A stretch of DNA of 64,000 nt from Dacryopinax spathularia (lineage: Eukaryota; Basidiomycota; Dacrymycetes; Dacrymycetales; Dacrymycetaceae): assembly GCA_037974965.1 (NCBI GenBank), contig JBBPFI010000009.1, positions 1 through 64,000 of the forward strand, given 5' to 3'. Positions 10,796 to 62,150 of the stretch are shown in pieces. The notes below the pieces were generated by a model. It ran no database searches, was not told the DNA's origin, and saw only the letters and a list, made by a program, of their open reading frames with translations. Position 1 is the first letter of the stretch. The number at the start of each line of letters is the position of its first letter. Both the position numbers and the translations under genes were made by a program.

Positions 10796-12446
10796 ATGGG
10801 CAAGAGGAAAGCGTCCGGCCCTGTTTATCCGCCTTCGGATGCGCCTGCCGCCCTGTCCTCAGATGAGGTTATCCGACTGTCACCCTCCCAATTCGCGCTG
10901 CGCACATCCGACTTCGCCCTGTACTGCGAGTGCATTCAAGTGATAAAGGACTATGAAAACGACACAACTCTCTCTTACTTGAGTCAGCGACCCAGTTATG
11001 TACTCGAAGAAGTGCACAACTTGCTACCCCAAGGAAGGCCTTACCTGCCGAAAGCTCTCCGCGAAGTGCGTCTTTCTCTTGATCTTGGAGCAGGCATGGG
11101 CTCACCTCAAGGCAGTGGGCGCATGGCGCAGCTTTCCGTGGTCAGCGAGAGGCAGAATTCGCCGCCGACCTCTGCGCTATTCCAGACGAACTCTTCAAGG
11201 ACGAGGTGGATCATGCGGAAGACATTCCTGTCAGCGAGTACCTGCAATTTCTGATTCCCGCGTACGGTCACATTCAGAGCTTCGCACGATTCGACAAGCG
11301 CGAGACGGGAGAGGCCGACACCAGGGCACCCATAGACAGCCTGATCGAGAGTTTTGGTGCAGACCAGTTTTCTCAGTCTCTCGATGTCGAGGCAGAACCT
11401 CGAGTGATCTTTCGGTGAGCATGGTGACCGTATTGCAATGCGCTCCTCATTTTCGAAACAGACGAGAGAGGTCGCTGCATTTGTGCAAGCTATTTGACAT
11501 CAGTCACGGGGTGCCGAACGCACTGCCAACGGCAAGGACAAACGTGGATTCTATGCTTCTTCTCCTACCAAGCAGGGAGCAATGGTTTCGCATCAGCCGG
11601 GCTACCGCGGATCTGCCCTTTGCTGCGAAAAGGGAACTACGTTGGCAGGAGGACCCGGTAGCGCACTTTTCGACCATATTGCTCTCGGTTGAGCACACGG
11701 GGAACCCTCCCATTACCGACCAGATTGTGTACAGTCTTGCTACGAATCAACGACATCGTCAGGCCATCGGGCTTCCTTCCAACGTTCAGTACGGGTTGGC
11801 TTGCGACGAGGGACATACGCATGTGATTGCCTCGTTCCTGGACGCTGCCGGGGACGTATGTCCTCCCTGCCAATGTATGAGATTCTCCGGCTGACTTGCT
11901 TTCTAGAAAATAACGTTGGTGAAGGTCGCAGTCATACATCACACGCAGTTGGTGGATCTCCTAAGGTTCTGCCACTTTCTGGATGCCATCCGACGGCGTG
12001 GCCATATAGAGGCTCTCCAACTGGCAGAGCGCCTCGCGCAGCCCACCTCCGTCCCCTTGAACCGCTACTGGAGACATCGCGGACTGTCTGTACACCAGCA
12101 GGTTCATGCTGCCGAAGGAAGGAAGAAATCGCGCCACGCTTCGCAAAACAGGCCAACTGCGAGTAACGCGCGTCTGCGCCCCAATGCACGTCAGGAGGCA
12201 AACGCCGCGCTAGATCACATACATTACATGGATCCTACCCTGTTTATATTGTTGTCCCACCTCGATTCGGGTGAGCTCATCTTGAGTCGAGAGGAGGAAG
12301 AAAGCTATCAGCGTGCCTTAGCCGACCTGGACGACCCAGGACCCCCAGAGGGTACGAGCTATCGACACGCCGAAAATCCTGTTCAGGCCTGGGTAGAGAA
12401 CTTACGAACTCCTGATGTCCCGGCGAGGAGTATGGACAACCCTTGA
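10796..12446 (+). CDS. Uncharacterised repeated gene family, copy 1 (apparently intact)
   Basis: I do not recognise this family by name. Four exons close in frame: 10796-11065, 11116-11414, 11462-11855 and 11907-12446, encoding 500 residues. Introns are 47-51 nt with good GT-AG ends. Conserved blocks shared with the other copies: residues ~28-90, with SPSQFALRTSDFALYCECI and a terminal LPKALRE; residues ~91-190, with EADTRAPIDSLIE; residues ~190-321, with ELRWQED, LATNQRHRQAIGLP and THVIAS; residues ~322-380, with LLRFCHFLDAIRRRGH; then a variable basic linker and an acidic tail with YMDPTLFIL, LDSGELILS and YQRAL. No signal peptide or membrane segment is seen. The basic linker (GRKKSRH) could be a nuclear signal. 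The start begins MGKRKAS, close to MPKRRAS of copy 4. Function is unknown. Confidence 0.8.
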
Positions 12447-13203
12447 TGATCATCAACAGCGCCTCCCCCACCAAGTCACCATGTGCCACGTCCCGGGAGT
12501 GGCGTGAGGTGGATCCCTTTGGGTAGAACCAGCAAAACGCCAAACACGCCCAGCCCCGCAGGGGAGCACCTCCTCCGAATCACAATAGTGAATGATATCC
12601 TCTTGGCGAAACGGACAGCAGGGCATCTCGCGTGATTGAGATGTTTCCTGATTGGCGCGCAGCCCGGCTCTGGCAAGACGGAATGTTCTCCGTCGCGTAT
12701 CTACTTGACTACTGCTACTTGGTCCATACGCAGCTGCTTACTTTACCTGCCTTGCTGCAAGTAGTAGGGGAAGTTAATCCATGCGTTTGGACACAGCTTG
12801 GAAGGTGAAAGTATAATCGTAATTGCCCATAACTTCTGGAGCCAATCAGCACGATATCAATCATTTCGGCATCATCAAAGCTCATTTTTATTTATCGTAC
12901 AGTATTCATTTTAGGTCCGTCACAGTCACGTGGTGACGAGCACCGGAGGAATTTACTCCATGCAGTCTCCCCATCCAACCCAGCACCCATTATTGGACTA
13001 CTTGATTGTGGATGGGACAACTCAACCTTTGCCCACCAGTATTGAACCCCATTAAAGCACCACCAATAACAACCAACCGCTCGAATGCTCTCATGCACCC
13101 CATCGCTGCCTCGACCTCCTCGACTCCTCCCAACTTCCTCGAAGGCTTTGTTTAGGGTCACGCCACCCAATTCTAACCGGCTCCTGGCTCAATAATAACG
13201 GCA
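12447..13203. other. Intergenic, nothing recognised
   Basis: About 757 bases between the first two repeated-family copies. Short overlapping open frames only. It holds the 3' flank of copy 1 and the promoter of copy 2. Confidence 0.5.
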
Positions 13204-14877
13204 ATGGCACAGTCCGCATTGAGTTCTGGATTCCCGCCCTCTGCTGTGCTTCCCACAGGCTTCTCCACTGTATCAACTTCCAAATACGTGCTGCGAAAAG
13301 ACGACTTTACTCGTTACTGCAAGTGCATTGGAGTGATTCAAGACTATCAAAAGGATGACGCAATATCTCCAATGGATCACCATCCCGACCATGTACTCGC
13401 TGAAGTTAAAGCAATGCTGCCCGAAGGAAGACCTTACCTGCCAAAAGGCCTTCGCGAGGTGTGCTCCTCCTCTCTCCTTGAATTGGACATGGGGCTCATC
13501 GCAAGGCAGTGGGCGCACAGCGAGATGTTCAATAATCAGCTAGAGTCACATTTCGCCGCGGAACTCCGCGCTATACCACCCGAGCTTTTCAAGGACGAGC
13601 TAGATCATACGACAGATATTCCTGTCTGCGACTACCTACGGTACTTGCTGCCCGCATACGAGCGCATCCAGAGGATCTCCGGATTCCGGGAGTATGAGCT
13701 GTCGGAGGCGGACACGAGGGCACCCCTGGACAGCTTAATTGAGGGGTTTGGTACAGACCATGTGTCACCCACCCTCTGCCTCTGTCAAGCAAGATGCCGA
13801 AGTAATCATTCGGTGAGCAAGGCGCCGCATTTCAAGGGTCTGCTCACCTCTGCACTAGACGAGAGAGGCCGCTGCATGTATGCAAGTTATTTGACATCGG
13901 TGTCGATGCGCCGAAGGTGCTGCCGGAGCCATCAACAGACGTGGATACGTTGCTCCTTCTCCGACCAAGCAGGCTGCAATGGTCCGACGCCAAGAAATCG
14001 ACCATCGATCTGCCCTTTGATGCCGAAGCGGAACTGCGTTGGCAGGAGGACCAGACGGCCGAGATATCAACAATCTTGCTTTCGGTCGAGCACAAGGCAA
14101 AGATTGCCGTCACCGACCAGATTGTATTCAGTCTTGCCACAAATCAAAGGCATCGTCGGGCCATGGGGCTTCCCCCAAGCGTACAGTACGGCTTAGCCTC
14201 GGACAAAGGAAGGACGCATGTCATCGCTTCGTTTTGGGAGAGCGCGATGGAGGCACGTATGTATCAATTTGTGAGATATTGAAACTGACTTGCCACCTAG
14301 ATGTTAATCCTGGTGCAAGTTGCCGTTATACAGCACACCAACTTGGCGCACCTTCTCAGGTTATGCCACTTCCTGGACTCTATTCGGCGACATGGACACG
14401 CTGAGGTGATCCAACTCACGGAGCGGTTTGCACAGCCCATTTCCATCGCCCAGGACCGTTACTGGCGGTTCCGCCGTTCCCCCACATTCCCACCCTCCGG
14501 CCTCTATCGCGCTACCAGGAAAAAGGACAGGTGAGCACGAGGAAAACCCAAAACCGAGGAAGAAATCGCGGCACCTGCTGCAAGAAACGACCGCAGCTCC
14601 CACCTGGAAGGTTTCTCCAAGTGGCGCTCTCCTCACTTCCGGTCAGAAGGCTGGAGCTGCTCACGATCACGTTCAGTATATCGATCCCCAATTGTTCCTC
14701 CTTCTTCTCGAGATGGAATCGGGCGAGCTTATTCTGAGCCCAGGTGTGAAAGAGAGATATCAGCGTGCTTTGGATGAGGGGATGTACGAACTGGGACCTC
14801 AAATGGGTACGAGTTACCTAGATTCTGACAACGATCCGATCGAGAGATGGGTACAACATCTAGAGCCGACTGCGTAG
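13204..14877 (+). pseudogene. Uncharacterised repeated gene family, copy 2 (frame-disrupted)
   Basis: Same architecture as copy 1 and tandem to it, but broken in three places relative to copies 1, 3 and 4. Exon 1 (13204-13458) and the first intron (13459-13509, 51 nt) are normal. Exon 2, starting at 13510, gains one base near 13771-13780, after GFGTDHVS, so the conserved VIIR end lies in another frame. Exon 3 ends four bases longer than in the intact copies near 14253-14256, so the usual GTATGT donor no longer joins in frame to exon 4 (from about 14301). A further shift within the basic linker near 14505-14530, beside a short A-run, separates RYWRFRR from the KPRKKSRH frame. The rest is well conserved (SLATNQRHRRAMGLP; tail GTSYLDSDNDPIERW), so decay is recent or some shifts are sequencing errors. 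Confidence 0.75.
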
Positions 14878-15500
14878 TCATAGTTTCATTGTTTCAGCGC
14901 GGGCTGTTGCGTAGGAATCGATGAAAAGCAGACAATCGTCAGTTTCATCCAGCTGCTTTCGAGCTCGAGAGGCGTGGGAGAAGATGATCGTCCTCCAACA
15001 AAGCATGTTCTCCCTCGCATATCTTCGGCTCAGCACATAACTCAGATGCAAGGTAATGCGTGACCTTACATTTGTTAAGAGGTCTACCGTTTACAGTTGT
15101 CCTCCAGGGTGAAGCCGCTGGATTCCGTTTCCAAGGCCTTGGGATCAACACTCCACGACAAGCCATTGTTGTATATAGCGCGAGTTTGGGCAAGTTCGCC
15201 CACAACGTACCTGTCTACTTACTTCAGTATCGGTTGAGAGCGAACCCAGCAGGATGTAACTGTGGCATCACTGGAAAAGTGAGGAAGGCGCCTGGATCTG
15301 AGGCACGTTGCACATGTTGCCTAGCTCACAGGAGCGACTCAATACGGGAGCAGGTAACTGGTAGAGTCGGCGCCTTTTCCTGACTTTAAGCCCTGGAAAG
15401 GCCGTGCGTGATACAATTAACCATAACTCAACGTGGAATGCAGGAGGAGAATTGAAAACTAGCTGTCGTGGTACCTTCGTGAACTTGGGGCATGTGCGAA
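14878..15500. other. Intergenic, nothing recognised
   Basis: About 620 bases between convergent copy 2 and the sterol glucosyltransferase. A 107-codon open frame (15060-15383) shows no recognisable domain or splice context. Confidence 0.45.
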
Positions 15501-33736: not shown

Positions 33737-36700
33737 TCAGAGACCGGACCAGGTAAAGCCTTTCTCCAGGACCAGTCTCTCGCTCAGAGGAAGCTGGCTT
33801 GAAGACGGTCCAACACGGATTGTATACTCACCGGCATCAGCCCTCCATTTCTCTAGGCGGTCATCGAAGTATGATATCGCGTATTTATCCAGGACAAGGG
33901 TTACTGTCTTTTGCTCCCCACTGCCGAGATCGTGAACTTTTGCGAACGCCTTCAACGCCAACGGCGGATGGGTGATACTGCCGGACGGGAGCGTTGTGTA
34001 TAGCTGAACGACTTCTGAACCACTAATCCTGCCGACGTTCTTCACAGTTACTAGCACGGTTGCCTTGAAAGTAACGTCTTGGGAAGAAAGATTAGAAATC
34101 TCGAGATCGGAGTAGGCAAACGTCGTGAAGGAGAGACCGAAGCTGGAATGGTTCAATGCCGCATCTTCAACAAGTTGTTGAATATCTCACCCAAATGCAA
34201 ATAGAGGGTCAATCATACGAGCATGATAGTGTTTATAGCCGACAAATAGATCCTCTGCATACCGGACTTTGCCATTTTGGTTGCCGTAGTTCAAGTATGA
34301 CGGTACGTCCTCAATGCGCTTCGGGAAGGTCATCGATAATTTGCCTGAAGGATTAACCTTGCCGAAAAGAATATCTGAGATGGCATGCCCGGTCTCGTTA
34401 CCGAGATACCAAGTGTGCAGTAGTGCATTCACACAATTGACCCACGGCATTGTGAACGCGGAGCCCTGCAAGATACACCTTCAGCTGCGTCAAAGATCCT
34501 AGTTGGGCAAACCACTCACAGCCTGAGTAACAACCACGGTATTGCTATTCGCCTTAGCGATAGCTGCGACCAGATCATTGGTTCGCCGCGGCAGCTCCAG
34601 ACTCTTCCTATCATACCCCTCACTCTCCCAGTCCCCATTCAGGCCTACCACAAGGACCACAGCGTCCGCAGCTTTCGCTATCGTCACAGCTTCGTTGATG
34701 CCTTCTTCTTCATCCAGTAGTGGAAAGCCGCCCAGTCTGACGCCAGCATTGGGGCTTGGACCGTCATCTTTCCCCTCCTCAATTGCGCGGCGCAGGTTGC
34801 TGTATTCGAGTCGAATGTCGGCTTCGGTGGCAGCTGGCAGGGTGACGTCGCCGATGACTTCTCCATTTGGGTCCCATAATCCACTCCCACTACTAGTTCC
34901 CCAAGACCAGTTGTCCACGATCAGCTGGTCATTCACGAACAGCTTGGCACGTCCAGCGACGGTTACACCAAATCGGTAGGTGGTTCTTGTCTCTCGAGAG
35001 CGGAGTTTGCCGCGAAGTACGAGATACCACTCTCGCTGGGAGAAAAATAGATCGGTATCCGTCATGAGCGCATTCATGTCATCCAGTACGACCTCCTCTA
35101 CAGGGCTGGAGTATTGCCCGCTGGGATCGCGTTTGAGGTAGAAGACGCCCTGCAAGCCGGGTTTGCCGTCGGGCGTGTGCACATCGCGCCCAGTCAAAGT
35201 TGGAGTATTACCATGCGCTAAGGACGACATTGTGTTGAGGGGCAGACACGTTGGTCGAAGAACTGCACGCACCTTGACAGCCCTGAGCATACAATATCTC
35301 GACGCCTTTGGGTACGGCTTCCACAATTCCGTCGTAAGGAGTAATGACGTAGGACGCCTTCAACGACGCAGAGCCGCCCCCAGCATAGTAGGCACCTTTC
35401 GCATTTGGGCCGATGATGGCAAGTGTCCTCAACTTGTCAGCTTTCAGGGGCAGAATGTTGCCTTCGTTCTTCAGAAGGACGATTGCGCTAGTGGCAACTT
35501 GGCGCATCAGAGTCCGTTCTTCAGGCGTGTCGTGGGTGCGCTCCTTCTGATCACCGTCTATGATCTCGAGAAGAGGGTAGGTCATTCATCGCAAACGACT
35601 GACGGTTGCCTTACCTCGGGGGCTCCCTGAGCAACCTTTTTGACAAGGTCAATGACCGCCCTGGCCCGAGCCTTCACCACGTCCAGAGTCAGCTTCTTTG
35701 CTTCCATGCTGCGGATTACTTTTGAAGTCTGTCGCCAGCCGTCCGTGCCAGGCATTTCCAGATCCAATCCGGCATTATATGCCTCGGGTACACCATACGT
35801 TCCACTCCTAGATACATCGATGAGGCTCCCACTACTGAGCATGAGAATAGTTCAACTGACCAGTCCGACATGATCATTCCGTCGAAACCCCATTCTTTGC
35901 GCAGAACGTCCGTAAGCAGCCAAGGATTCTCTGAGCAATGCACGCCATTGATTCGGTTGTACCTGGTTGCTCATCAGAACAGAGTTGCAGTGTGGCATAC
36001 GAGAACATACGCGGTCATGTACGCCCACGGCTTCGCGTATTTTTGTGCGAGCATGAATGGGTAGAGATAGACCTCGCGTAGAGCACGTTCGGTAATTAAA
36101 GAGTCGGACCCACGCCGTTCTTGTTCTTGCTCGTTTCCGCTATTCTGCTGTTAGGAAGGATGCGAGGAAGAATGTAGCAGGACGAACACAAAATGTTTGA
36201 TGCAAGCGGAGATCCCTTCTTCTTGAAGCCTCGAGATATACGAAGCTGCCATCATACCATTCAGGAATGGATCTTCAGAGAAGCTCTCGAAACTACGTCC
36301 ACCCAGAGGGTTCTAGGGAATCTCAGTTAGCTTTAACGCCCTGATCATGCCAGAAGGTCGAACGCACCCGCTGGATGTTGCAAGTCGGGCCCAGGAGGAC
36401 GCTGGCTGCTTTCAGCTTGCACTCTGGAGCAAGTATCTTCGCCGCTGCTTCTCCGATCAAATCCGTATCCCACGTCGCTGCAAGGGCAGTTGCACACTGT
36501 CAAATCATAGTTCAGACAGTAGTATACACGGCAGAGTCGTCGAGCGTACCGGAAGACATTTGGCAGGAGTGCTCATGAAGTACCTCCTTCCCCTCGCACC
36601 ATTGGGCCCATCGGTTACCTTATAGCTCGTCAGGACCATCGCTCTCATAGTCACCTAAGTTGGCTGACATTGATGCTGGGAATGCCCAGCCTCGGAACTG

Positions 36701-37229: not shown

Positions 37230-40113
37230 TTATAGGCCTGACCAAGTGAAGGCGCTCTGGATGTCGACCTCACCTTGCAGCAACATCCTGTCACTAGAAG
37301 GGCCGACAAGGATACTATACGTCCCCGCGTCGGCCCGCCACCTATCGAGCCGATCATCGAAGTACGATACAGCATACTTATCAAGCGATAGGACGGCCTG
37401 CGCGCTCTTGCCTGGTTCGAGGTCAAGAACCTTGGTGAACGCTTTGAGTGCACGGGCTGGATGGGTAAGGTTGCTTTGTGGAAGGGAGACGTATAACTGC
37501 ACGACTTCGGAGCCGGTGACTTTTCCAGTGTTGGTGATCGTGATTTTGACGGTAGCCGCGAAGTCGACCCCATTACCAGATACTCCAGAGATATCCAGGT
37601 TGGAGTACTGGAATGTCGTGTAGGACAAGCCAAATCTGCATAGGGATGAGTACGGGACGGAGTGGAAGTCGGGATGCACGCACCCGAACGCGAACAGCGG
37701 CTCAATCTTTCTGGCCTGGTAGTGCTTATATCCAACAAAGAGGTCTTCTGCATACCTCACTCGGCCGTTCTGGTTTCCGTAATGCAGATAGGACGGTACA
37801 TCCTCGATACGCTTCGGGAACGTGAGCGACATCTTCCCGGATGGGTTGACCTTCCCGAAAAGGACATCGGCAATCGCATTGCCCGTCTCGTTCCCAAGGT
37901 ACCAAGTGTGAAGCAGAGCGTTGACAGAGTCAACCCACGGCATCGTGAAAGCAGATCCCTAGCTTTTCTGTAAGCCTCGCACCAACATGCATAAGGAGCA
38001 CGACTTACCGCCTGAGTGACGACGATTGCCTTCGCGTTTGCCTTTACGACTGCCGCAACGAGATCGTTCGTCCTCCTAGGCAGGTCCAAGCTCCTCCGAT
38101 CATACCCCTCACTCTCCCAGTCCCCGTTCAGTCCAACAACCACAATCACCGCATCCGCCTGCTTGGCCAGATCAACAGCCTCGGCGATTCCTTGCTCCTC
38201 ATCCAGCAGAGGGTAGCCGCCAAGCCTCATCCCCGCATGCGGGTTTGGGACACCCTTCTCATCCCCGTCGGCGGGCCCCGTGATATTGCTGTACTCGACA
38301 CGGATATCATACGCTTTTCCCGGGAGCATCTCGAACTCTCCCATCTCCTCCTCCGTTCCGTCGCCAAAGAAACTATCTCCGCGTCTCTGCCAGGTCCAAT
38401 TGTCGATAATCAGCTGGTTGTCGACAAAGAGCTTTGCGCGTCCAGCGACAGACAGACCAAAGCGATAGGTCGTCTTGCGCTCTTGAGGGCGTAGTTTACC
38501 CCGGAGGACGAGGTACCACTCGTCGGAGGAGAAGAAGATGTCGCTGTCGTTCATGAGCGTGTCAGTGTTGTCCAACAAGAAGTTCTCGACGGGTGCGGAG
38601 TATGCCTCGGAGCTGTCCCGCTTGTGATAGAAAGTTGCGTCGAGTCCCGGGCGCCCGTCGTCCGTGACGAGCTCACGACCAGTTAAAGGCGGAGCACGGC
38701 GATGGCCTGGGTCTCTCTCAGCACCGGCCGAATTATCGAATGAAGTCGAGAGGGATCGCACCTTGGCACCCTTCGGCATACAGAACTTTCGCATCCTTCG
38801 GCAGCGCGGCTACAATCCCCTCAAACGGGGTGACAACATAGCTGGCCTTGAGGCTCGCACTCCCGCCTCCAGCAAAACAAGCAGCCTTTGCACTCGGTCC
38901 TACAATCGCGATCGTTTGGAGACTATCAGGCTTGAGAGGCAGGACGTTGCCCTCGTTCTTCAGGAGGACAATCCCGCTCGCAGCAACCTTGCGCATCAAA
39001 GCCTTTTCCTCTTTCGTATCATGCGTTCGTTCCTGCTGGTCGCCATCGAGGATTTCCGGAGCGCCCGCCGCGCACTTGCGCACTAACTCCAGGACGGCTT
39101 TGGCGCGTGCGCGAACAACGGGTAGGGTGAGCTTCTTCGCTTCGATCGAGCGGAGGACCTTGCTCGCCGTGCGCCAGCCGTCTGTACCCGGCATCTCCAG
39201 GTCGAGGCCGGCATGATATGCTTCAGGCACGCTGTACGTGCCTCGCCTACACCATAGCCACATCAGTCTAGCTCGCAAACAAAAAAGGGTGGATAAGACG
39301 CACCAGTCACTCATCACACAACCGTCAAACCCCCACTCCTCTCGCAGCACGCTGGTCAACAGCCACGGATTCTCGGAGCAGTGGGTCCCGTTGATCCGGT
39401 TGTACGCTGTCATGTAGCTCCAAGGCTTGGCATACTTCTGGGCGAGCATGAATGGGTACAGGTAGATCTCCCTCAGTGCGCGAGGGGTGATGAGCGAGTC
39501 AGAGCCTTTGCGTTCTTGTTCCTGCTCATTCCCGCTATAATCCTTTGTTAGCAGGTAGTCCCAATGCACACAGGAGTAAAAGAGGAGGCGTACACGAAGT
39601 GCTTGATACATGCGCTGATTCCCTCCCCCTGCAGCCGCGCAATATAGCTCGCAGCCATCATCCCACTCAGGTGCGGATCCTCCGAAAAGCTCTCAAAGCT
39701 CCTTCCTCCCAGCGGGTTGCGCTGGATGTTCACTGTCGGTCCGAGGAGGACGCTAGCAGACTTGAGCTTGCATTCCGGCGCCAAGATGAGCGCGGCCGCC
39801 TCGCCGATCAGCTGGGTATCCCAAGTCGCAGCCAGGGCTGTTGCACACTGTCCATATTTGCTCAGCTAAGGTACCTCTTTCATAGGGCAGCAGTGCGCAC
39901 TGGTAGGCATTTCGCCGGCGTTCCCAGGAAGTACTTCCTTCCTCTTGCGCCGTTCGGTCCGTCAGTGACGTTGATGCCCGGAACGCCTAGACGGGGAACA
40001 GGCGCGGTGAACCAGTTGCCCACTCCGGTGGTAAGCGCGATTGCTTCCTCCGACGAGAGCTGAGCGACGAGGGCGTCGATGTCTGTGCTGGCGAAGTCGG
40101 ATGGCTTGGGCAT
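37230..40113 (-). CDS. Beta-glucosidase, GH3 with PA14 insertion (paralogue 2)
   Basis: Same enzyme family and architecture as its neighbour. It starts MPKPSDFASTDIDALVAQL at 40113 with no signal peptide. The first exon includes ITDG-type sequence GINVTDGPNGARGRKYFLG without interruption. WGFDGCVMSDW carries the predicted nucleophile (Asp codon 39306-39308). PA14 landmarks are FYHKRDSSEAYSAPVENF and TYRFGLSVAGRAKLFVDNQ. The C-domain has AVIVVVGLNGDWESEGYDR, then FTMPWVDSVNALLHTWYLGN and GLSYTTF, and the protein ends SAFTWSGL, as in paralogue 1 (FTWSGL). Introns are about 50-75 nt, some without in-frame stops, so exons appear merged. It lies head-to-head with repeated-family copy 3, 542 bp apart. 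I see no frame defect. Confidence 0.9.
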
Positions 40114-40655: not shown

Positions 40656-42314
40656 ATGTCCTCTGCTTTCCCTGTCGCCAATGCTTTTATCGTATCGCCC
40701 TCAGAGTATGTGCAGCGCACAGGCGACTTCTCTGAATACTGCCGCTGTATTGGAGTGATACAGGACTACTACGGCCAGGACTCCGCCCTATCATATCTCG
40801 ACGAACTGCCCGATCATGTGCGCAATGATATCCGCACGATGCTGCCCGGCGAAGGAAAAGGGTTCCTGCCGAAAGCCCTGCACGAAGTGCGTTGTGTCTT
40901 TCTACATTGAAATGGACGCATGCTCATCTCTCAGCAGTGGGCGCACGGAACGACTTTCGATGATGACCAGGACAGGGAGTTTGCGGCCGAACTCTGCGCC
41001 ATACCAGACGAGCTCTACAAGGATGAGGTCGATCACGTCGAAGATATTCCTCTCAGCAAGTACCTACGATGCCTGCTCCCGGCATACGAGCGCATTCGAA
41101 AACTCAACCAAATCGTGAGATACGAGATCGGGGAGGCGGACAGCAGGGCGCCCATAGACAGTCTCATAGAAGGGTTTGGTACGGACCGCTTTTCGCGCTC
41201 TGCCAACGCACATAAAGATCCTGAAGTAATCTTTCGGTGAGCAAGGCGACCACCTTTGAGGTCACCACTCACATCTGCAACAGACGAGAGCCCCGGCTGC
41301 GATTATGCAACCTACTCGACATCAGGCGCGGTGTGCCGAGCACGCTGCCAAGTGGAAGCACATCCGTGAATTCCATGCTCCTTTTACGACCGAGCATGTC
41401 GCAATGGTCCCATATTTCGAAAGCTACCGCAGACTTGCCGTTCGCTGCCCTACCTCAACTACAATGGCAAGAGGACAGGGCAGCCCGTTTGTCCTTAATA
41501 TTGCTTTCGGCCGAGCACAAAGGGAAGACCGAGGCGACCGACCGGATTGTATACAGCCTCGCAACAAACCAACGGCAACGTCAGGCGATTGGCCTCCCCC
41601 GGAGCGTTCAGTACGGATTGGCGTGCGAGGAGAGGATGACCCATGTGATCGCCTCGTTTTTCGACAGTCTCGGAAAGGTATGTCCTGGGCGCCATTTAAG
41701 AAATCTTTGTAGCCCTTTTGACCTATAAGCGGTAGATGATAACCATGGTGAAAGTTGCGGTTATAAGCCACTCCAGCTTGGCGGATCTCCTTAAATTCTG
41801 CCACTTCCTGGACGCTATCCGCCGCCGTGGGCATATGGAGATGACTCAGCTCACAGAGCGCTTTGCCGAACCCATTACCGTCCCGGAGGATCGGTACTGG
41901 CGACACCGCGATGCTTCCCTATTCCAACCTACGCAACCGGTCCGCATCGCAGAAAGAAGGGATGGCGAGCACGATGATGATCCAGAACCCAGGAAGAGGC
42001 GACGGCTCGACCGGCAAAGAACAGCGAAACTCACGCATGCGAAGCCTACTGCAAGTGGCAGACGCCGCACTTCCCGCCAGGAGGACGGAGCGCCTCAGGA
42101 TCACATTCAGTACATGGATCCCAGCCTATTCATCTTGTTCTCGAGATTGGACTCGGGTGAACTCGTCCTGAGTCCAGATGAAGAAGAGCAGTATCAGCGT
42201 GCTTTGGCCGGAGGGGGGCACGACGTTGGACCTCAAATGGGTACGAGTTACCTTGATTCCGACAAAGATCCGATCGGAGCATGGCTACAACAGCTAGAGG
42301 AGACCGCGCCGTAG
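40656..42314 (+). CDS. Uncharacterised repeated gene family, copy 3 (apparently intact)
   Basis: Four exons close in frame: 40656-40886, 40938-41236, 41284-41677 and 41736-42314, encoding 500 residues. Exons 2 and 3 have exactly the lengths of copy 1 (299 and 394 nt). Conserved landmarks: SPSEYVQRTGDFSEYCRCIG, FAAELCAIPDELYKDEVDHV, EADSRAPIDSLIEGFG, LLSAEHKGK, SLATNQRQRQAIGLP, SVQYGLAC, THVIASFF, LLKFCHFLDAIRRRGH, HIQYMDPSLFILFSRLDSGE, YQRAL and GTSYLDSDKDPIGAWL. The linker is strongly basic (PRKRRRLDRQ), a plausible nuclear signal. It starts at MSSAFPV, shorter than copies 1 and 4, lacking the MxKRxAS leader. The first-intron acceptor is TCAGCAG, so alternative use would add one Gln. Function unknown. 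Confidence 0.8.
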
Positions 42315-43342: not shown

Positions 43343-45722
43343 ATGAAGTACGAACTCTTGCAGCACCGCTCAAGCGAGTCTACCGACAGCCTGCGAAGCC
43401 AGCCAGACATGGACCTGATCAACGAAATAACCCCGGTCTCGCCCGTCGAAGAGGAGAAGATTGCCCATGAGCAGAACGTGGATGCCGAACTCGCTCAGAG
43501 CGCTGGATCATCCATCAATTTGAAGAACGTTGATCGTCAGGGACTGGTGAATGACCCGAACCCATTCCTAGATGAGGACTTGGCACCGTACCTGGCGCCA
43601 ATCAAGCAGTATGAAGGTTACCACCGGTTTGACCCTAAGGCTACCTGGACGGAGAAAGAAGAGCAGAAGATTGTGCGCAAGATCGACGCCCGGATTATGG
43701 TACGCTTGTCTTCTTGTCCTCTATGAGGCTCCGCTCAATGGCTATTATAGGTCTGGACTTGCATCATGTTCTTTGCGTTGCAACTGGATCGCGGCAACTT
43801 GTCATTCGCTTTGACGGACAACATGCTCAACGATCTAAAGGTAGGTCTTCGCCACCGTCCTAATGTGATCTCCTGACGCATATCTTCTTCTGCAGCTTAC
43901 AACTGACGACTATAATAATGGCAACATGATCTTCTATCTTACGTTCCTGAGTGCTGAGGTTCGTGCGCTCTCGGTCGTTCGCGCGCTCTGCGCTCATTCG
44001 TGATACAGATTCCCTCCCAACTGGTATCGAAACGTTTAGGGCCAGACCGGTGGCTTCCAATGTAGGAGAGTTATCTTCATTCACGGCTGCTTAGTGACCC
44101 TGGTTCACAGTCAAATGACGGCTTGGTCCATCGTCGCGATGTCACAAGCTGCCTTAAGCGGAAAAGCGAGTTTCTTCATCACACGCGCTTTGCTCGGCAT
44201 CATGGAGGGAGGGTAGGTGCATAAATGCTTTTTTGCGACTTATAATTCACGCAGTGAATTCCTGTAGGTTCATACCTGATATGGTCCTCTTCCTGAGTTA
44301 CTTCTACAAGGGAAAGTAAGTGCACTCGTAGAGCCCGCCGGAAAGATCACTCACGACTCTTACGTAGGGAGCTGCCCGTTCGGCTGAGCTTCTTCTGGAC
44401 GTCAAGCACTCTCAGTACGCACGTCCATCGTTCCCCTTTTCGCCCACTAATATCACTGCAGCCACCATAGCAAGCGCATTCATGGCATACGGTATTCTTC
44501 ATCTGCGGGGTGTACATGGACTTGCCGGTTGGCGCTACCTCTTCCTTATCGAAGGCGGTATCACCCTTGTGCGTACTCCGTACTCCGCTCCTAATCCTCT
44601 CTTCCCACTTTCGACGAAACCTAGCTAATCCGCGTTGCAGGTCGTGGGTTTGCTCTCCTTTGGTCTGATGCCCCCTTCCAACCCAAACGGCATCATGGTT
44701 CCGCGGCCGAAACGGCTGGTTCACACCGCGTGAAGAAACGATCATGGTTAACCGGATTCTGCGGGATGACCCAACTAAAGGAGATATGCATAACCGGCAG
44801 GCGATCACTCCAGGGTTGATCTGGCAGTGTTTCACGGATTATCATTCCTGGCCCATATACCTGGTACGTCTCTCCCAGCTGTTGCCGCAGACGAGGATTG
44901 GAAGTTGACAGGCTCTTCTGAAATAGATTGGTTTGACTGGCTATATCCCGACGAGCCCGCCTGGCGCGTACCTCACACTTACGTTGAAGAACCTCGGCTT
45001 CGGTACTTTCAACTCTAACCTGCTTACCATCCCCAACAGCGTGCTGTTCATCATTAACGTGAGTCGTATCAGAGTCTTTCTGCATCTTGGGCTCATGTTG
45101 TGTGCAGCTGTTACTCGTCACCCAGCTCAGCCGGCGGGTCAACGAGCGTTCTTTCGTTGGGTAAGTCCTTTAAAAAGCTGCCAAAGATGAGCGTTACTCA
45201 CATACTTGCAGCGCTATCGGCAATCTTTGGTCCATCCCTTTGCTCATTGCCCTCGTTGTCCTACCCGATACCGCCAACGCGTGGACGAGATATGCAATCT
45301 TGACCCTTCTGCTGGGCTATCCCTACGTTCACGCCATCGTCGTCGGCTGGGCATCCTGGACATCAGGTTCCGTCCGCCTACGCACCGTCAGTGCAGCCTG
45401 CTACAACGTCTGTGTCCAAGCCGGCAACGTCATCTCCAGTCATATCTATCAGTCAGGGGATGCACCGTACTACCACAAGGGAAACAAGGTGCTGCTCGGG
45501 ATCGCCTGCTATAATGTGGCGCTGTTTGTAGGGACGAAGTTTTTCTACATGTGGGTGAATAGAAAGAGGGCAGAGAAGTGGGACAAGATGACGGGAGAGG
45601 AGAGAGCACATTATCTGGCTACGACGACAGACAAGGTGGGTTCCGTTCATTCGTCTCACGCCATACACCGCTAACTTGCAGTGCAGGGTAACAAGAGGCT
45701 GGATTTCCGTTTCGTGCATTGA
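43343..45722 (+). pseudogene. Dal5-type MFS permease 1 (allantoate/organic anion), broken by a 2-bp deletion
   Basis: Thirteen exons, each of the same length as in permease 2 from exon 2 onward except exon 9: 43343-43699, 43751-43840, 43896-43958, 44009-44061, 44111-44212, 44268-44315, 44368-44414, 44462-44568, 44641-44863, 44927-45058, 45108-45160, 45212-45635, 45687-45722. Family marks: [103 protein letters not shown]. Exon 9 is 223 nt instead of 225: near 44676-44680 two C residues are missing in the stretch for the conserved PSPTQ, and the frame then stops at TGA 14 codons later. Everything downstream stays conserved, so loss is very recent or a sequencing error. The start may instead be the ATG at 43409 (MDLINEI), which matches permease 2. 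Confidence 0.85.
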
Positions 45723-46093: not shown

Positions 46094-47817
46094 TCAAGTC
46101 TGATCCATAGTCGTATCCGGGACACCATGAGCGCGCAGCTCCTCTATCCAGCCCCGGACAGGATGCTCGGCATGTCGATAGCTTGTGCCCTCTCGAGGTC
46201 CGAGCTCATCCCGCTGTGCCAGAACACGCTGATAGTTCTCCTCCTCCTCTGGAGTCAGTTTGAGCCGACCCGAGTCCAGGTTGGAGAACAGGATGAACAG
46301 CGCTGGGCCGAGGTACTGGACATGGTGGTCCCAGGGTGGTGCTCTTGTCTTGTGGTGCGGACTGCGGCGGGAGCCGGTTGCAGGAGGACTAGGTTTGGGG
46401 GCGGCGATCGCTCGACTTGGTCTTTGCGGCGGCAAGTGGCGCGCCTTCTTCCTGGGTCCTGCATCGGCGTCCTGCCCGTGTGCCGAAGGACCGCGCTCAG
46501 GCTGTCGCCAGTAGCTGGTCGTGGGGATAGCGAGCGGCTGTGCGAATCGCTCCATGACGTCTACCATCTCCTCGTGCCCACGACGTCGTATAGCATTCAG
46601 GAAATGGCAGAACCGGAGTAGGTCCACCAAACTAGTGTGCTGAATAACGGCCACTTTCACCATGTTTATCATCTACAATGCAAAAAAAACAGTTGGGGGG
46701 ATGTCGCAGATTGGCAGACGGGACATACATACCTCCCCACCGGCGTCCAAAATGGAAGCGATCACATGCGTCCTTTCTTCCTCGCAGGCCAGTCCGTACT
46801 GAACGCTCGGCGGAAGCCCGAGCGCCTGCCGGTGCCGCTGGTTCGTAGCGAGACTATAAACGATCCGATCGGCTCCTTTTTTGGTCTCCGAGTCGTGCGT
46901 TGCCGAAAGCAACATTGTGGAGAACTTTGCTTCTCCGTTCTCTTGCCAGCGTAGTTCTGCTCCTGCGGCGCCAGGAAGGCGAGCGAGATTAGCCATGATG
47001 TCGGTTGATTGCGCCTTGCTGGGACACAGAAGGATCGTGCAGTCCACGGTCGTTTTGTGGCTAGGCAGTGTGTCGGGTACACCGTGGTTGACATCGATCA
47101 ACTTGCATAAACGCAGCTCTCTATCCCGGCTATCCCATACGACCCGATGAGCAGGCAGCTCCAACGTGGTCACCCCCGCGCTCACCGAAAGATCACTCGC
47201 GGGTCAGTCATCAGATCCGCAGAGCGGGAAAACTGGTCCGTGCCAAACCCTTCTATGAGACCGTCTATGCTCGCTCTGCCGTCCGCGGCGCTCAACTCGT
47301 ACTTCCCAAATTGAGTCCGGGCCCGAATTTTGTCGTACGCGGGGAGCAAGAAACGTAAGTACTGACTGACGGGAATGTCTTGTGAGGCGTCCGGCTCTTG
47401 CTTGTAGAGCTCGGCCGGTATGGCGCGGAGTTCTGCGGCGAAATCGGCCTCTTGCTCGTCTATGAATGTCGTGCCTTGTGCCCACTGTTCTCAAGCTCAG
47501 CGATCGTCAACTTCAAGGAAGAAAAAGCGCACTTCTCGGAGTGATTTCGGCAGGAAAGCGTTTCCCCGGGCCTTTGGTAGCATCGCGTGCACCTCAGCCA
47601 GTGCGTAATCGGGCAGTCTACCGAGATAAGACAGAGTGTTATCATTCTCGTAGTTCTTAAGCACACGAATGCAGCGGCAGTAGGCCAGGAAGTCGGCGGT
47701 TCGGGAGACGTATTGGGAGGGCGACAGGGTCGGGAAGTTGGCGGTAGGGAAAGCGGTACTAGTAGGCGTAGCTATAGGTGCAGCACCTGCCGATCTGGAC
47801 GCTCTTCTCTTCGGCAT
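46094..47817 (-). CDS. Uncharacterised repeated gene family, copy 4 (apparently intact)
   Basis: Four exons close in frame: 47533-47817, 47186-47484, 46733-47129 and 46094-46672, encoding 519 residues. It starts MPKRRASRSAGAAPIATPTS, like the leader of copy 1, followed by SPSQYVSRTADFLAYCRCI and LPKSLRE. Exon 2 is again 299 nt and ends in VIFR. Exon 3 has RLCKLIDVNHGVPDTLPS, AELRWQEN, SLATNQRHRQALGLP, SVQYGLACEE and THVIAS. Exon 4 starts MINMVKVAVIQHTSLVDLLR and has FCHFLNAIRRRGHEE, a basic PRKKARH linker, LFILFSNLDSGRLKL and REGTSYRHAEHPVRGWIEEL. The position occupied by EHK in copies 2 and 3 is THD here. It is divergent from the hydrolase-like gene, 473 bp apart. Confidence 0.8.
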
Positions 47818-48290: not shown

Positions 48291-51200
48291 ATGCCTCCGA
48301 TCCCGCACAGAGAAGCGAGCACGTCGACCTCCTCAGCTCGTTCCTCGACCTCATCATCTTCAAGCTCAACACCTTCCCCGTCGACCAGCACCAGCACCAC
48401 CCGTCCGCCTCTCCTGCCCTCGCAGAGCAAACCCGAGCCGCCAGCCCTGACGCGCGTGTTCGCGAGGGGTCAGCAGAGAAGAGGGACCAAGTCCGCAATG
48501 GGGAGCTTGCCCCGCCCAAGTCCACTAAGGAAGCAAGTCAGCTTTGGGGATGGGCTCGGGAATGGCAACGGGAATGGGAATGGGAATGGGAAGGAAGAGG
48601 ACAAGGGCAAGAAACGCGCTGTCGAGCAGGAGGTCTATACTGCAGGTGTAGGTGCGGGCGAAGGCGGTGGAAGTGACGAGCCGAACAAACGGGCGAAGAT
48701 CGTTGCGTCGGACGCTGCGTCCGTCTTGTCTAGCGCGTCGTCCAATCTCGCGCCGTCTGCGTCTATGCCTGTTGCTGCTGCTCCTGCTCTGCCCGCACTG
48801 GCGAGCGCCGCGAGTGGGAGTGGGAATAACGCCGCAAGGTCCTGGTGGTCCTGGTCTTCTCCTAATCTCGCTGCCCCTCCTGCATCCGAACAACAAGCCA
48901 GTATGAGTACTCTGCCGCCTAATCCGACCTCATCTGAAGAACCCCAAGGACCCGACTCCGCAGGGGAAGCAGCCTCCGCCGCAGGACACATTTCCCCACC
49001 AGCAACGAGCGCCGCGTCTTCCCTCCTCGCAGCTTCCTCCTCCACCACTCCATCAGCATCATCGTCAGCAGGAGACGCACCCCCATCAAGAGAAGACCCG
49101 ACCTCACCCAGCAGCGGCAGCTCCCAGCGGACCGTCAAGGGCAAAAGAAGCTGGTTCGGGAGTTGGGGAAGGGCGAAAGCTCGCCAACAGCTGGCTGACA
49201 ATGAGGGCGGAAGTGTTGCGCCGCCCGTACCGCCGCTCCCGGCTGGGATTACGACTTTCTCCTCCTCCTCTGGGTCTGGTCCGACGTCTGCCGGAAGCAT
49301 AGAAGCACCAGGAATAGCACGCATGTCATCTGAGGCATCGGCAGCTTCTGCACCTCCTAATCTCCAATCTTCTTCCACTTCCTCCCCAACACCAACGCCA
49401 ACGCCAGCGCCACCATCACCTCAGCCAGCCCTCCCCCGCCGGCCCTCCTCCCCCATCCCCATCCCCATCCCCTCCTCCTCCTCCACCCTCACGCCCCCTC
49501 GTCAGCCCCAACAACAACCCTCCCGTCCCACCCACTCGCGTCAACACTCCACCGCTAGCCGACTCACTGCCTGTGCCGCCGGGGGATCATCAGCGCCCAG
49601 CACCCCCGCTGGCAGAAGTAGCAGTATAATGACCCTCGAGTCACCGGATACGAGAGTCCCCACGCCTGCATTCCTTCGCGCGGGTTCGCCAGTCTCCGTT
49701 AGCTCGCTGCCTGCTTCTGGCAATGGGGTGGGTGAGCAGGGCAACCCAGCCTCGGGCGGAGGGAATTATGAAGGAGTACAAGGAACAGGGAGAGCAGGGG
49801 GAGCAGGGGTGGTTAGTAGGCTCGTGCCTGCTCCTTCTGGGGGGTTGGCGAGTCTTAATGCGGGTGCGTTGAGGTATACGCTGAGTCTGCCGTTGCTTGG
49901 TGGGAGGCCGAAACGGATGGAGGTGGTTACCCTTGGCGAAGGCGAGGGAGAGGTGAACGGCAAAGGCGGGCGCAGCCAGAGGGAGGGGGCGGCGGGGGAG
50001 GGCGGGGGGGTCGTCATAGCTAGCGGTGAGGGTGTGGGGAGGGAAGATGGGAGGAGGGAGGAAAGGGTGGAGGTTATGGTTGTTCCTCCTACGCCTGGAC
50101 AGGGAGGGGGAAAGGAAGCGGAGAAGGGGAAGTCGGAGGTGGATCCTACTGCAGGTATGACATTCCCACAGCTTGAGGAACAGTATACTGACGCACGTTT
50201 CTGGTAGAACAAGCGGCCGCAGAAGCCGCCTGGTGGTGGTCCTACCTCGGTTTCTCCAACCCCTCCAAACCGCCCCCAAGTGCCTCCGATCCCGTCGCGC
50301 CTGCCCCTCCCGCCGCGCCATCGGATAGTGAAGCAGCAGACATACTTCCCCCTCTCTCCCCCTCCTTCCCCTCCCATCATTCTCCGCAACTGCAACTGCA
50401 ACAGCAACAGCAGTCCGACACGCCCCGCCCGTCATCCGCCTCGGTCTTTTCGGGTGAAACGAGCAAGACGAAGGGCGGGAGCGTGTGGTATCAGCCTTGG
50501 TATTGGTACACCGCGCCTGCCGCACCTGCTCAAGAAGAGGACCGGGACGAAGAGGGCAAGACAGAAGCCGAGAGGGTGAAAGACGAGGCTCTCGCTCGTG
50601 CTTCCCAAGCCGACCCTCCGCCTGCCGACTCGACATCGCAAGCGAAATCGGACGAATCCCCACAGCAGCCACAGCAGGATAAGGATCAGGATCAGGATAC
50701 GGCTGGAGTACCCGCTAACCCGCTCACAAGCGCGAGCAACATGCCTATGTGGATCAACTTCTTTTCCGCTGGCCGGAACCCGGCTCGAGCAGCGGTCAAT
50801 CAGCACGAAGAGATGGAAGTGATGACTATCGACGAGGACGGACCGTCCGATTCCGCTTCGCCCAGTTCGTCCGCCACCGCTGCGGCTGCTCCGGGCGTTG
50901 GCAGTCCCGGATCTGCCGTGGTCGTCGTTTCTCCTCCCGTCGTGGAGGAGAGCAGCAAGGATCGGAAGAAGAATGCCGCTAAGGAAGCTGCCAAGTTGGC
51001 CGGGCAGGCGAAGGAGGCCGTCCGGGCAAGGAGGAGCCAGTCGCGCGATGGCCTGAAAGCGGCCGCGCCTACCGCTCCTGCTGCAGGAGACGTGTCGAAG
51101 CTGGGCTCGAGCTTGCCAAAGGATGGATTGAAGCCTGGCAGCGTGCCGTCCAGCAAACCAGGGAGCATCAAAGCTGGCACTTCGCCCTCCAGCTCTACGC

Positions 51201-57253: not shown

Positions 57254-58928
57254 TCAAGGTCTGGTTCGGACCTCCTCCAACCAGGCTTCTACGGCCTCTT
57301 GACCCTCCTGATCGAGATAACTCTCCCCCTCCTGCGGCCCGCGATCCCCCATCCTCGGCCTTTTCCTCTTCCTCTTCCTTTCTCCAAGCCGTTCGCCCTT
57401 CGGACCTCCATTCCGAGCCCGAGTCCGCACCCATACTCCTCCATCCCTAGTATTCCCAGCCCGCCAACACCTTTCCTCAACCCCCTTCAAGTCCTTCAAT
57501 CCCCTCGCCAGCCTCTCTGCCTCCTCCGGCCCGCGGCGCCGTATCGAGTCCATAAAATAACACAACCTGAGCAGGTCCTCCAAGCTCTCATTCGCCCACA
57601 TCGCCACTTTCCAGAGCGTTATTTCCTTCACCGGGGCATATCCCGCTTCAGGTCAGATCTCTCTCTGGAAGGTAGTGCTAGAGGGGGGAACGTACTTACC
57701 TCCGTGGATTCATCCAGATCGGAAGCGATCACACACGTCACTTCGTCGTTGCAGGCCAAGCCGTACTGCACGCTCCCTGGCAACCCCAACGCACGCCGCT
57801 GTCGCTGGTTCGTAGCCATCGAAAAGCCTATTCCGCGGGGCAACGCTCTACTCCTCCCGGCCCCCCACACGCCCGGCGCCGGCCCAGGTCGGTATTCCTT
57901 CGTACACATCAGAAGCGTTATATACGCCGTCTGATCCTCCGGACCGGGCCTGGCCTGCCAGTACAGCTCCCTCTGCGCCGCGAGGGGGACGTGCTGCCGC
58001 GCGAGGCGGATATGCAGTGCGGAGAGGTCGGCTGCGCTCGGTCGGAGGAAGAGCATTGACTGGACGGTGTGCGCTGCGGGGTTTGGGAGTGTGCAGGGGA
58101 GACTGTCGGTGCCGGTACTACTAGAGAAGAGCGAGTCGAGCGGACGAAGAAGCTTGGGCAGGCGGATGGGTCTTTCTCTCCTGCTCGACTCGTCAACACT
58201 CAACACAGCACAGCACCGGACGACGACGGCATCCAATCCGCGAAATTGTTTTGCAAGGCTCAGGCTCATACTCACCGAAACACAACCCCGCAATCCCTCA
58301 TCTCCTCCGCCGACCTCGGCTCCCGGTCCGCCCCAAACCCCCACATGAGCCCATCCACCCCGGCCCTCTTATCCGCCTCTCCCAGCTCGAGCTTCACCCC
58401 CGCCGGCACCGAAGGGGACAAGAACGCCCGCAGCTGGGAATAAGCGGGGAGGAGATGGTGGATGTATTTCTCTAGCTGTATGTCCTCTTCTGGGTGATGT
58501 TGGAGTTTGTAGAGGTTTGCGGGGAGGGCGAGGAGTGAGCTGGCGAATTCTTGCTGCGAGGCGCCGAGGAAGGGGCCGGAGTGTGCCCACTACTCACTGT
58601 CATGCTAAGTTGATATGCTTGTGATGATGCGTGGAAGGGAACAACGCACGTCGGACAGCGCCTTGGGCAAGAACCGCTCTTTCCCCGGAGCTAACCGGGT
58701 GAAATCGTCCTGGATGTGTTTGGGTGCATCGTCGAGCAGGGGAGGGAAGAGATTGTTGTCCATGTACATCCGCCTTAGCTTGATGGCTTCACAGTAGAAG
58801 TCAAAGTCAAAGTCGTCTTGTGCCACATTCTCCACAAACTCGGTCGAGGGTACGAAGGGGATGAAGTACTCGGAGTATGAGTCACAAGTGGATGAGGATG
58901 GGCTGCCCGAGGGGGGGCGACCTTCCAT
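57254..58928 (-). CDS. Uncharacterised repeated gene family, copy 5 (divergent, apparently intact)
   Basis: Four exons close in frame: 58650-58928, 58276-58589, 57700-58180 and 57254-57625, encoding about 481 residues. The intron positions and phases match copies 1, 3 and 4. Sequence is clearly more diverged: exon 1 has FYCEAIKLRRMYMDNNLFP and RFLPKALSD; exon 2 (314 nt, not 299) has LGEADKRAGVDGLMWGFG and ends VVFR; exon 3 is enlarged to 481 nt, with ELYWQAR, an inserted Gly/Pro/Arg stretch, SMATNQRQRRALGLP and SVQYGLACND. Exon 4 is shortened to 372 nt, with DLLRLCYFMDSIRRRG and a basic RKRKRKRPR linker, ending soon after GESYLDQEGQEAVEAWLEEV, so the acidic YxDPxLFIL block is missing. The start ATG is at 58928; an upstream in-frame ATG at 59078 is possible. 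Confidence 0.75.
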
Positions 58929-59188: not shown

Positions 59189-61525
59189 CTAATGAACGAA
59201 GCGGAAGTCGAGTCTTTTGTTCCCCTGTGTACAGAGAACTCAGCCTTGCAGTTCCGCAAGCCAGTATCCAAGCGAATCTGAATCACCCACCTTATCTTTC
59301 GTAGTGGCTAAATAACGTGCCCTCTCCTGCCCAGTCATAGCGTCCCACTTCCTCGCCCTTCGGCGATTGACCCACATATAGAAGAGCTTCGTCCCTACAA
59401 ATAGGAACACGTTATACACCGCTATGCCCACGAGGACCCGATTGCCAGTATGGTAATACGGCGCATCCCCCGACTGGTAGATATGGCTCGATATGACAGT
59501 ACCCGCTTGCACGCAGACGTTGTAGCACGCTGCGCTGACCGTTCGGAGTCGGACGGAGCCGGATGTCCAGCTCGTCCAGCCGACCACGATGGCGTGCACG
59601 TAGGGGTAGCCGAGAAGGAGGGTGAGCAGCGTGTATCGAGTCCAGGGGTTGGCGTCGTCGGGTAGGACGGCGAGAGCGACTAGGAGCGGGATCGACCAGA
59701 GATTCCCGATTGCCCTTCGAGAATAAACGGTCAGCGTGCCCCACCAAAGGGACAATGTAAGCGCCCGTACCCGACCAGCGAGCGCTCATCCAGCCTTCTG
59801 CTCAGCTGCGTCACCAACAGTAGCTGAATAGCCCTCAATATCGATGCTCGAAGGTAATCGAGGAAAAGGAACGCACATTGATGATAAACAGCACATTGCT
59901 CGGGATCGTCAGCAAGTTCGAGTTGAACGTGCCAAACCCAAGGTTCTTCAGCGTCAACGTCAAATACGCGGTCGGCGGCGCTTGCGGGATATATGCCGTC
60001 AACCCAATCTACTCCATCACGTCAGCGCATCAGCAATGCCACGTCTACAGTAGCAGCAAGGGCGAAGATGAGGTGAGTCATCAACGCACGAGATATATAG
60101 GCCAAGAATGATAGTCCTTGAAACACTGCCAGATCAGCCCAGGGGTGATGGCTTGCCGGTTGTGCATGTCCCCTTTGGAGGGGTCGTCCCTCAAGATCCG
60201 GTTGACCATGATGGTCTCTTCGCGTGGTGTGAACCATCCTTTTTTGCCGCGGAACCAGGATGCAGTTTGCGTTGGCGAGGCGGGCATGAGGCCGAAGGAG
60301 AGAAGGCCGACTACCTACGTGCGGATTTCCCAGTCAGCACAAAAGTTATAGGGCGGCAAGGCCAGAGCACGGACCAGGGTGATTGCGCCTTCGATGAGGA
60401 AGAGGTAACGCCAGCCCGCAAGACCGCGTACGCCACGTAAGCGGAGCGTGCCATAAGCCATGAAAGCACTTAGGATCGTCGCTAGGCGAGGATCAGTTAG
60501 CGTTGCAGCACGGCGCGGATGGAGACGTACTAGCCGTATCAGATGTCCAGAAGAAGCTGAGGCGGACGGGCAACTCTCTGAGCAAAGATACATGAGGATG
60601 CACGTCAACGGAAGGGATATTGATGCCCTTACTTTCCCTTATAAAAGTAGCTCAGGAAGAGCACCATGTCCGGGATGAACCTACGCAGCCAACTCCTGTC
60701 AACCCATGGCGACTGCTGGAACCAAAGGCCGTCTCCGACCTACCCTCCTTCCATCGCACCGAGCAGAGCGCGCGTGACGAAAAAGCTTGCGCGGCCGCTC
60801 AATGCGGCTTGTGACATGGCGACGAACGACCATGTCGTCATCTGACTGCGGCTCGTTAGCAGATTGCGAGTAGTCTCTGGACTATCGGCATACATTGGCA
60901 GCCAGCGATCTGGTCCTAGTCTTTTCGATACCAGCTGAGAGGGGATCTGCAGGAGAGATATGAGGTGCTGTCCGCTAGGAGAGGTATTACGCACCTCGGC
61001 GGCAAGAAAGCAGAGGTAGAAGATCATGTTGCCGTTGTTGTAGTCGTCCGTCGTTAGCTATCACAGAGATATGAGCGGGCTGCGAGCTGATTTAGAGAGG
61101 GTTGAACGCACACCCAGGTCATCGAGCATGTTGTCCGTCAGTGCGAAAGAGAGGTTTCCCCTATCCAGCTGTAGCGCGAAGAACATGATGCATGTCCAGA
61201 GCTTGCACAGACTTATAAGCGGATTCGGACACGAGTGGGTATACGAGAGGCGGCGTACCATAATCCTAAAGTCGATCTTGCGGACAATCCTCCTCTCCTC
61301 CTCCTCAGTCCAAGTGGCCTTAGGGTCAAACCGATGATAACCCTCATACTCCTTGATAGGCTCGAAATACTCGGCCAAGTCCGGGTCGGCGAATGGGTTG
61401 GGATCATTGACGAGGTCGGAGGCGGAAGAAAGAGCGCTCTGGCCTAGTTCGACGTCGAGTTTCTCCCGCGCGGCTTCCTTCTCGTCGATGGGGGTGATGG
61501 GTGGTATCTCGTTGATCAAGTCCAT
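59189..61525 (-). CDS. Dal5-type MFS permease 2 (allantoate/organic anion), intact
   Basis: Plasma-membrane proton symporter of the anion:cation symporter (Dal5/Seo1/Tna1) family; the substrate is probably an organic acid or ureide such as allantoate. Thirteen exons close in frame: 61259-61525, 61112-61201, 60995-61057, 60894-60946, 60744-60845, 60633-60680, 60531-60577, 60375-60481, 60090-60314, 59877-60008, 59771-59823, 59291-59714 and 59189-59224, giving 548 residues. A cytosolic N-terminus ([20 protein letters not shown]) ends in [20 protein letters not shown]. Family marks: [101 protein letters not shown] and [17 protein letters not shown]. It ends [10 protein letters not shown]. About 12 membrane spans are expected. 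It is flanked by family copy 5 downstream and a family relic upstream. Confidence 0.93.
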
Positions 61526-61889
61526 TTTGAACCCACACTAGTCTGAACGAATGCAATAGCGCAAGTATACAGAGGGTTGGCAGGAGGTTGTGCACGCCCT
61601 GCTCCAGAGGTACTTAAGTCCTAATATGTTGTACGAGCTGGCGGCTCTGGCATGCTGGAGCCCGGCAGCACCATCATCAGTATGGCGTACTCCAGCCAGC
61701 GCCCATATTTCAGACCATGCGTTCCAATAGACCTGATATCGCCTAGTCAAGTAGGTTGCACCATCCCTGTGGAGTATGAGTTGAGCGTTTGACCAACGCG
61801 CAAGAAAGAGCCAGTTTGGGAAGCACGATCGATTGACGCGAGAAGAAGACTGGAAGGTGTCATATCGCAGTTTGAAAGATAAGCCGTGC
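61526..61889. other. Permease 2 upstream region
   Basis: About 360 bases separating permease 2 from the family relic. Only short frames are present. It presumably holds the permease promoter. Confidence 0.4.
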
Positions 61890-62150
61890 TTGCCGCGCTT
61901 CTGATGTACAAGGAGACACCATCCAAGAAGTTGAGAAGAGCCAGGGCCACGACCACCTGCACGCAGCGTGAGGAGCAAGCAGCCCGAGACACCCAAGGAC
62001 GCGGCCGAAGAGGAAATGGTCGATGCCAAAGTCTTTGCCATGCTCGACCATCTCAGCGAGTCGAATGACCTCGATCTGCCTCCAGAGGTGGAAGAAGCGT
62101 ACGAACAGGCGCTGGCTGAAGGTCAGTATGAGTCCGGACCGGGATGCTAC
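61890..62150 (+). pseudogene. Relic fragment of the repeated gene family (copy 6)
   Basis: Two short pieces resemble the family. Near 61893-61930, ALLMYKETP recalls TLLMCTKEY of copy 5 exon 3. Then 61990-62147 encodes DAKVFAMLDHL...LDLPPEVEEAYEQALAEGQY followed by ESGPG, matching the C-terminal DPxLFILxSxLDSGELxLSxEEExxYQRALA block that copy 5 has lost. The material between these blocks is missing, there are stops upstream, and no other exon can be found, so this is a deleted relic. Confidence 0.5.

Follow-up and report, generated by a model that had tools for sequence, protein, structure and literature searches.

The first 64 kb of contig 9 (1,371,616 bp) in an assembly of Dacryopinax spathularia, an edible, wood-decay jelly fungus, very probably hold an old cluster of duplicated genes that is confined to a single subtelomeric locus and belongs to an apparently uncatalogued family. 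This stretch of 64,000 nucleotides (GCA_037974965.1, contig JBBPFI010000009.1, positions 1 to 64,000) was analysed as a whole and is referred to below as the window. CCCTAA telomere repeats open the window, in agreement with the end-of-chromosome location put forward in an original prediction made from the letters of the window. The family copies, together with a probable relic, lie 11–62 kb from this telomere. All five gene-length copies proposed at the outset were recovered, four of them intact (c1, c3, c4 and c5) and one broken (c2), and the family is indeed spread over both strands. The result is a modest one for annotation: an apparently uncatalogued, seemingly still functional family whose copies arose by old duplications at one subtelomere and look to have been retained by selection.

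Gene copies and their architecture

The copies, the probable relic and the telomere repeats are located in the window as follows.

2..147 (to about bp 147), no strand: CCCTAA telomere repeats, read directly; the repeat is also found at the apparent ends of other contigs
10796..12446, + strand: c1, intact; exons 10796-11065, 11116-11414, 11462-11855 and 11907-12446 (270/299/394/540 nt); 500 aa
13204..14877, + strand: c2, broken; 4 extra nt in exon 2, phase mismatch at the exon 3/4 junction, frameshifted linker in exon 4
40656..42314, + strand: c3, intact; exons 40656-40886, 40938-41236, 41284-41677 and 41736-42314 (231/299/394/579 nt); 500 aa
46094..47817, - strand: c4, intact; exons 47533-47817, 47186-47484, 46733-47129 and 46094-46672 (285/299/397/579 nt); 519 aa
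57254..58928, - strand: c5, intact and most diverged; exons 58650-58928, 58276-58589, 57700-58180 and 57254-57625 (279/314/481/372 nt); 481 aa
62013..62141, + strand: probable relic; about 43 codons resembling the C-terminal tail only

Spliced models of the four intact copies begin with ATG, run in an uninterrupted frame and end at the expected stop. Their introns (47–95 nt, all GT..AG) fall at matching positions in phases 0, 2 and 0. The four-exon architecture first described for every copy, with common intron positions and phases, therefore applies to c1, c3, c4 and c5 and fails for c2 at its out-of-phase exon 3/4 junction; all exons of c2 are recognisable by similarity, yet they yield no readable frame. 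Exon lengths were as originally reported for c1, c3 and c4 (exon 2, 299 nt in each; exon 3, 394, 394 and 397 nt, respectively), and the corresponding exons of c5 are longer (314 and 481 nt).

The most conserved residues form a core. In an alignment of the four intact copies the segments WQE, ATNQRxRxAxGLP, VQYGLAC, VIAS and IRRRG are invariant, and the near-invariant signatures noted from the outset hold with two exceptions, NVQYGLA for SVQYGLA in c1 and TCVIAS for THVIAS in c5. The linker is variable, yet contains basic runs in all four, from RKKSRH (c1) to ERKRKRKRPR (c5). The segment LFILxSxLDSGELxLS..EEExYQRALA is absent from the C-terminal tail of c5.

A relic had been proposed at about 61,890–62,150. 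Scanning the 64-kb window with eight exon queries returned a weak match within that interval, at 62,013–62,141 (best E 6e-4), so that this stretch is probably a relic of the family, limited to the C-terminal tail. The best matches beyond the copies and the relic (E 0.014 at 691–891; E 0.040 at 50,452–50,619) looked like chance.

A single locus in the genome

Copies were searched for at the DNA and protein level in the whole assembly (29,246,034 bases in 24 contigs). Every match to c1 DNA (4 of 4), to the c4 protein (16 of 16) and to the core segment (10 of 10) fell within the window, as did 14 of the 15 matches to the c5 protein; the sole outlier, on contig 1, had an E value of 0.136 and looks like noise. 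With the c4 protein as query, c1 was found at a best E of 1e-94, c3 at a best E of 1e-54 and c5 at 2e-19. The last value is informative: c5, which was missed by c1 DNA and shares 38% protein identity with c1, was nonetheless found, and equally diverged copies elsewhere should therefore show.

No credible copy was detected elsewhere in the 29.2 Mb, in which eight or more further contig ends look telomeric (on contigs 1–8, among the 100 of 437 telomere-repeat places listed), although the protein search scores only the best first-look candidates and weaker remnants could escape it. The original prediction had suggested a family expanding in subtelomeres, for which numerous members biased towards telomeres would be expected, and mapping along the contigs did not sustain this: all credible matches lay at one locus, within positions 1–64,000 of contig 9, and none at the other apparent telomeric ends. 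Given a single locus, we make no claim of telomere enrichment. A telomere-biased family expanding across many chromosome ends would fit the subtelomeric position of the cluster, but for this assembly it is largely refuted and must be considered very unlikely. Copy number may already differ on the second haplotype, the published estimate of heterozygosity for D. spathularia being 5.09% (PMC11066560).

Searches for relatives

The family could not be placed in any known family, as the original prediction had also concluded. Pfam was scanned up to an E value of 10 with the full proteins of c1, c3 and c4 and with six pieces that included the cores of c1, c3 and c5 and a blended core, and gave nothing credible. 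Weak matches to Gemini_AL2 (E 0.037 and 0.079), DGKD_4H (0.036), DRMBL (0.13 and 0.047) and UIM (0.21) were all below cut-offs and were taken as chance. There was likewise no credible match in NCBIfam (c1 and c3), in PHROGs (the four intact copies) or among PDB sequences (two profiles). With two short peptide patterns per scan, there were 78 pattern matches in prokaryote genome contigs and 80 in viral contigs, and no relative was confirmed in either set. Literature searches on FunK1, subtelomeric families, PDDEXK families and Dacrymycetes orphan genes returned no title on the family, a weak test for a family that has no name. Judged by Pfam, NCBIfam, PHROGs and PDB, then, the family is apparently uncatalogued, fungal proteomes lying outside these libraries.

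Lineage-restricted (orphan) paralogue clusters occur in fungal subtelomeres. The cluster described here resembles them in its local duplicates, its broken copy, its probable relic and its nearness to a telomere, and differs in that the family was found at a single locus only.

Age of the copies and selection

Divergence among the copies suggests purifying selection on old paralogues in the case of c1, c3 and c4, for which the ratio of nonsynonymous to synonymous divergence (dN/dS, NG86 method) was 0.21–0.30 at dS values of 1.15–1.55. For two of the pairs with c5, dS was beyond the reach of NG86; the third gave a dS of 2.75 and a dN/dS of 0.25. Third codon positions differed most in 10 of 10 pairs (p from 1e-6 to 4e-13 in the six pairs among c1–c4, and from 5e-5 to 1e-9 in the four pairs with c5). 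In a small tree c1 and c2 were paired (support 0.95), and the branch leading to c5 was the longest by far.

Two considerations weigh against this interpretation. Introns were nearly as similar as exons among c1–c4 (identity 0.57–0.65 versus 0.61–0.68, over about 145 aligned intron bases), and the dN/dS values are rough because dS is high. On balance, the sequence comparisons are read as those of old copies mostly retained by selection, with the ratio itself taken as rough. When 1-kb flanks were compared, upstream with upstream and downstream with downstream, the best shared match was 20 nt; recent duplication of larger blocks that contained the copies is therefore not apparent.

Proposed fold and function

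Tentatively, we would guess at a protein of the nucleus whose PD-(D/E)XK-like core has decayed; this best guess at function is based on the order of secondary structure elements and a partial motif. A presumed likeness to the PD-(D/E)XK superfamily, especially to the fungal PDDEXK_12 family (PF20516), served as a lead only. The proteins would remain intracellular and be imported into the nucleus, a location suggested by the lack of a hydrophobic start, as judged by eye, together with the basic linker in the four intact copies. The conserved core, from the end of exon 2 to the start of exon 4, would correspond to a decayed PD-(D/E)XK-type fold binding nucleic acid. Its putative elements are, in order, a helix at (E/A)ADxRAx(I/V)D..L, a strand at VDSMLLL, a helix, and strands at ELRWQE and ILLSVEH, followed by a helix around ATNQR and then the paired strands VQYGLAC and THVIAS. 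What the family shares with the superfamily is how its helices and strands appear to follow one another and, in some of the copies, a pattern resembling VD..L / (I/L)xVExK; it differs in the absence of a profile match and in its variable catalytic positions. Every element of VD...EHK, a pattern like D..E-x-K, is present in the broken c2; the other copies retain part of it.

AlphaFold models were made of two halves assembled from exon pieces, with the introns read through. The C-terminal half showed, at low confidence, strands (E) and helices (H) in the order E26-34, H38-48, E58-60, E69-78, H97-102, E110-116, E119-127 and H145-163. The N-terminal half, also at low confidence, had a helix (H184-192) over IDGLIEGFG, just past the AAD motif. 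This order is compatible with an alpha-beta-beta-beta-alpha-beta core.

Several results weigh against a nuclease-like fold. Mean predicted local distance difference test (pLDDT) scores of the two models were 36.9 and 37.8, with no residue at or above 70, which makes them unusable as fold evidence. A Foldseek search of the C-terminal half against PDB gave 629 matches at E ≤ 10, none of them at E ≤ 0.001, and the top ones were mostly ribosomal proteins. No PD-(D/E)XK family appeared in the Pfam scans of the three full proteins and six pieces. The PDDEXK_12 model itself had no match in the genome, a result that is uninformative, as no control genome matched either. Lastly, the would-be catalytic positions in c1 to c5 read D, D, N, D and Q; E, E, E, T and E; and T, K, K, D and R. 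The conserved catalytic D, E and K of PD-(D/E)XK proteins thus occur together only in the broken c2, and in view of this variation and of the lack of a full set in any intact copy, a role in binding or regulation would be likelier than enzymatic activity. If the fold guess is true, a decayed nuclease-like nuclear family would be added to fungal biology.

A further step, that a dead nuclease fold was recruited to a nuclear or genome-conflict role, is highly speculative; the subtelomeric block would then perhaps vary between strains, and it shares its contig with STE3 and with most FunK1 matches.

Alternative explanations

The same proteins could instead be intracellular regulators or scaffolds with a lineage-specific fold and no nuclease ancestry, the ATNQR..VQYGLAC core acting as a protein-binding module. 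We regard this as quite plausible, though somewhat short of an even chance. It accords with the lack of a credible match to any described family or, by sequence, to any solved structure, and with catalytic-like positions that are not conserved; the alternation of strands and helices does resemble a nuclease core, but in low-confidence models only.

An origin in the N-terminal part of FunK1 kinases (Pkinase_fungal, PF17667) was considered, since the order of motifs is similar by eye and most FunK1 matches are on contig 9 too, again as duplicated genes. The core was compared with the N-terminal region of seven FunK1 sequences from the genome, an eighth locus (contig 9, position 431,792) being excluded because its match hit a stop. 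The profile comparison gave a probability of 0.1%, and alignment scores did not rise above those of shuffled sequences (z ≤ 0.8) in 27 of 28 pairs; the best pair, c5 with one FunK1 sequence, reached a z of 2.1, a level equalled or exceeded by 10 of 300 shuffles. Furthermore, c1, c3 and c4 had no Pfam kinase match, and none of the 33 PF17667 matches listed lay in the window. With no support from either the profile comparison or the shuffled alignments, FunK1 ancestry was rejected as improbable.

It is slightly less probable still that the copies represent a domesticated or decaying mobile element. Several copies on both strands, one of them broken, and a probable relic could be seen in this light, but three introns at conserved positions, 1-kb flanks that are not common to the copies, dN/dS below 1 and detection at one locus only all speak against it.

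Least probable of all is an identity as Spok-like selfish or incompatibility genes that kill through a nuclease-like domain. The comparison is prompted by the local grouping of paralogues and their possibly nuclease-like core, SPOK proteins joining a PD-(D/E)XK domain required for killing to a kinase domain required for resistance (PMC6660238); against it, no kinase match was obtained in the three full copies scanned, nor any PF17667 match in the window.

Neighbouring genes and other observations

Neighbours were identified from Pfam scans of 30 open frames in the window and, for the transporter-like genes, from reading the sequence.

8.9–10.6 kb: dihydrolipoamide-dehydrogenase-like gene (Pfam)
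17–19 kb: PH, GRAM and glycosyltransferase matches, below cut-offs (Pfam)
21–26 kb: TPR and Iml2 proteins (Pfam)
27.7 kb: F-box protein (Pfam)
34188-36781 and 37681-40082: two GH3 beta-glucosidase genes in tandem (Pfam)
43544-45641 and 59285-61414: two transporter-like genes in inverted orientation to each other (sequence reading; none of the three frames scanned there matched Pfam)

The transporter-like genes are 68.8% identical over 2.2 kb. Identity in the longest stretches of this pair and of the GH3 pair was about 68–69%, much as for the family copies. An 81-nt inverted match (78%) links positions 9,681–9,756, in the dehydrogenase-like gene beside c1, with positions 14,916–14,995, just past c2; it is possibly the trace of an old joint duplication, which a protein-level scan did not confirm. 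A listing of repeats of at least 60 nt in the window showed short repeated and near-palindromic units of about 65–73 bp at positions 6,815–6,985.

Outside the window, positions 348,293–574,151 of contig 9 hold 28 of the 33 FunK1 matches listed in the genome, and 20 of the 24 above cut-off. In control genomes the FunK1 model matched 6 of 14, above cut-off in 2. Two Homeobox_KN matches lie on other contigs (2 and 12). All seven STE3 pheromone-receptor matches fall inside the FunK1 stretch of contig 9, in two groups at 379.5–380.5 kb and 390.3–391.3 kb, and this stretch could represent kinase genes clustered within or surrounding the pheromone/receptor (P/R) mating-type region.

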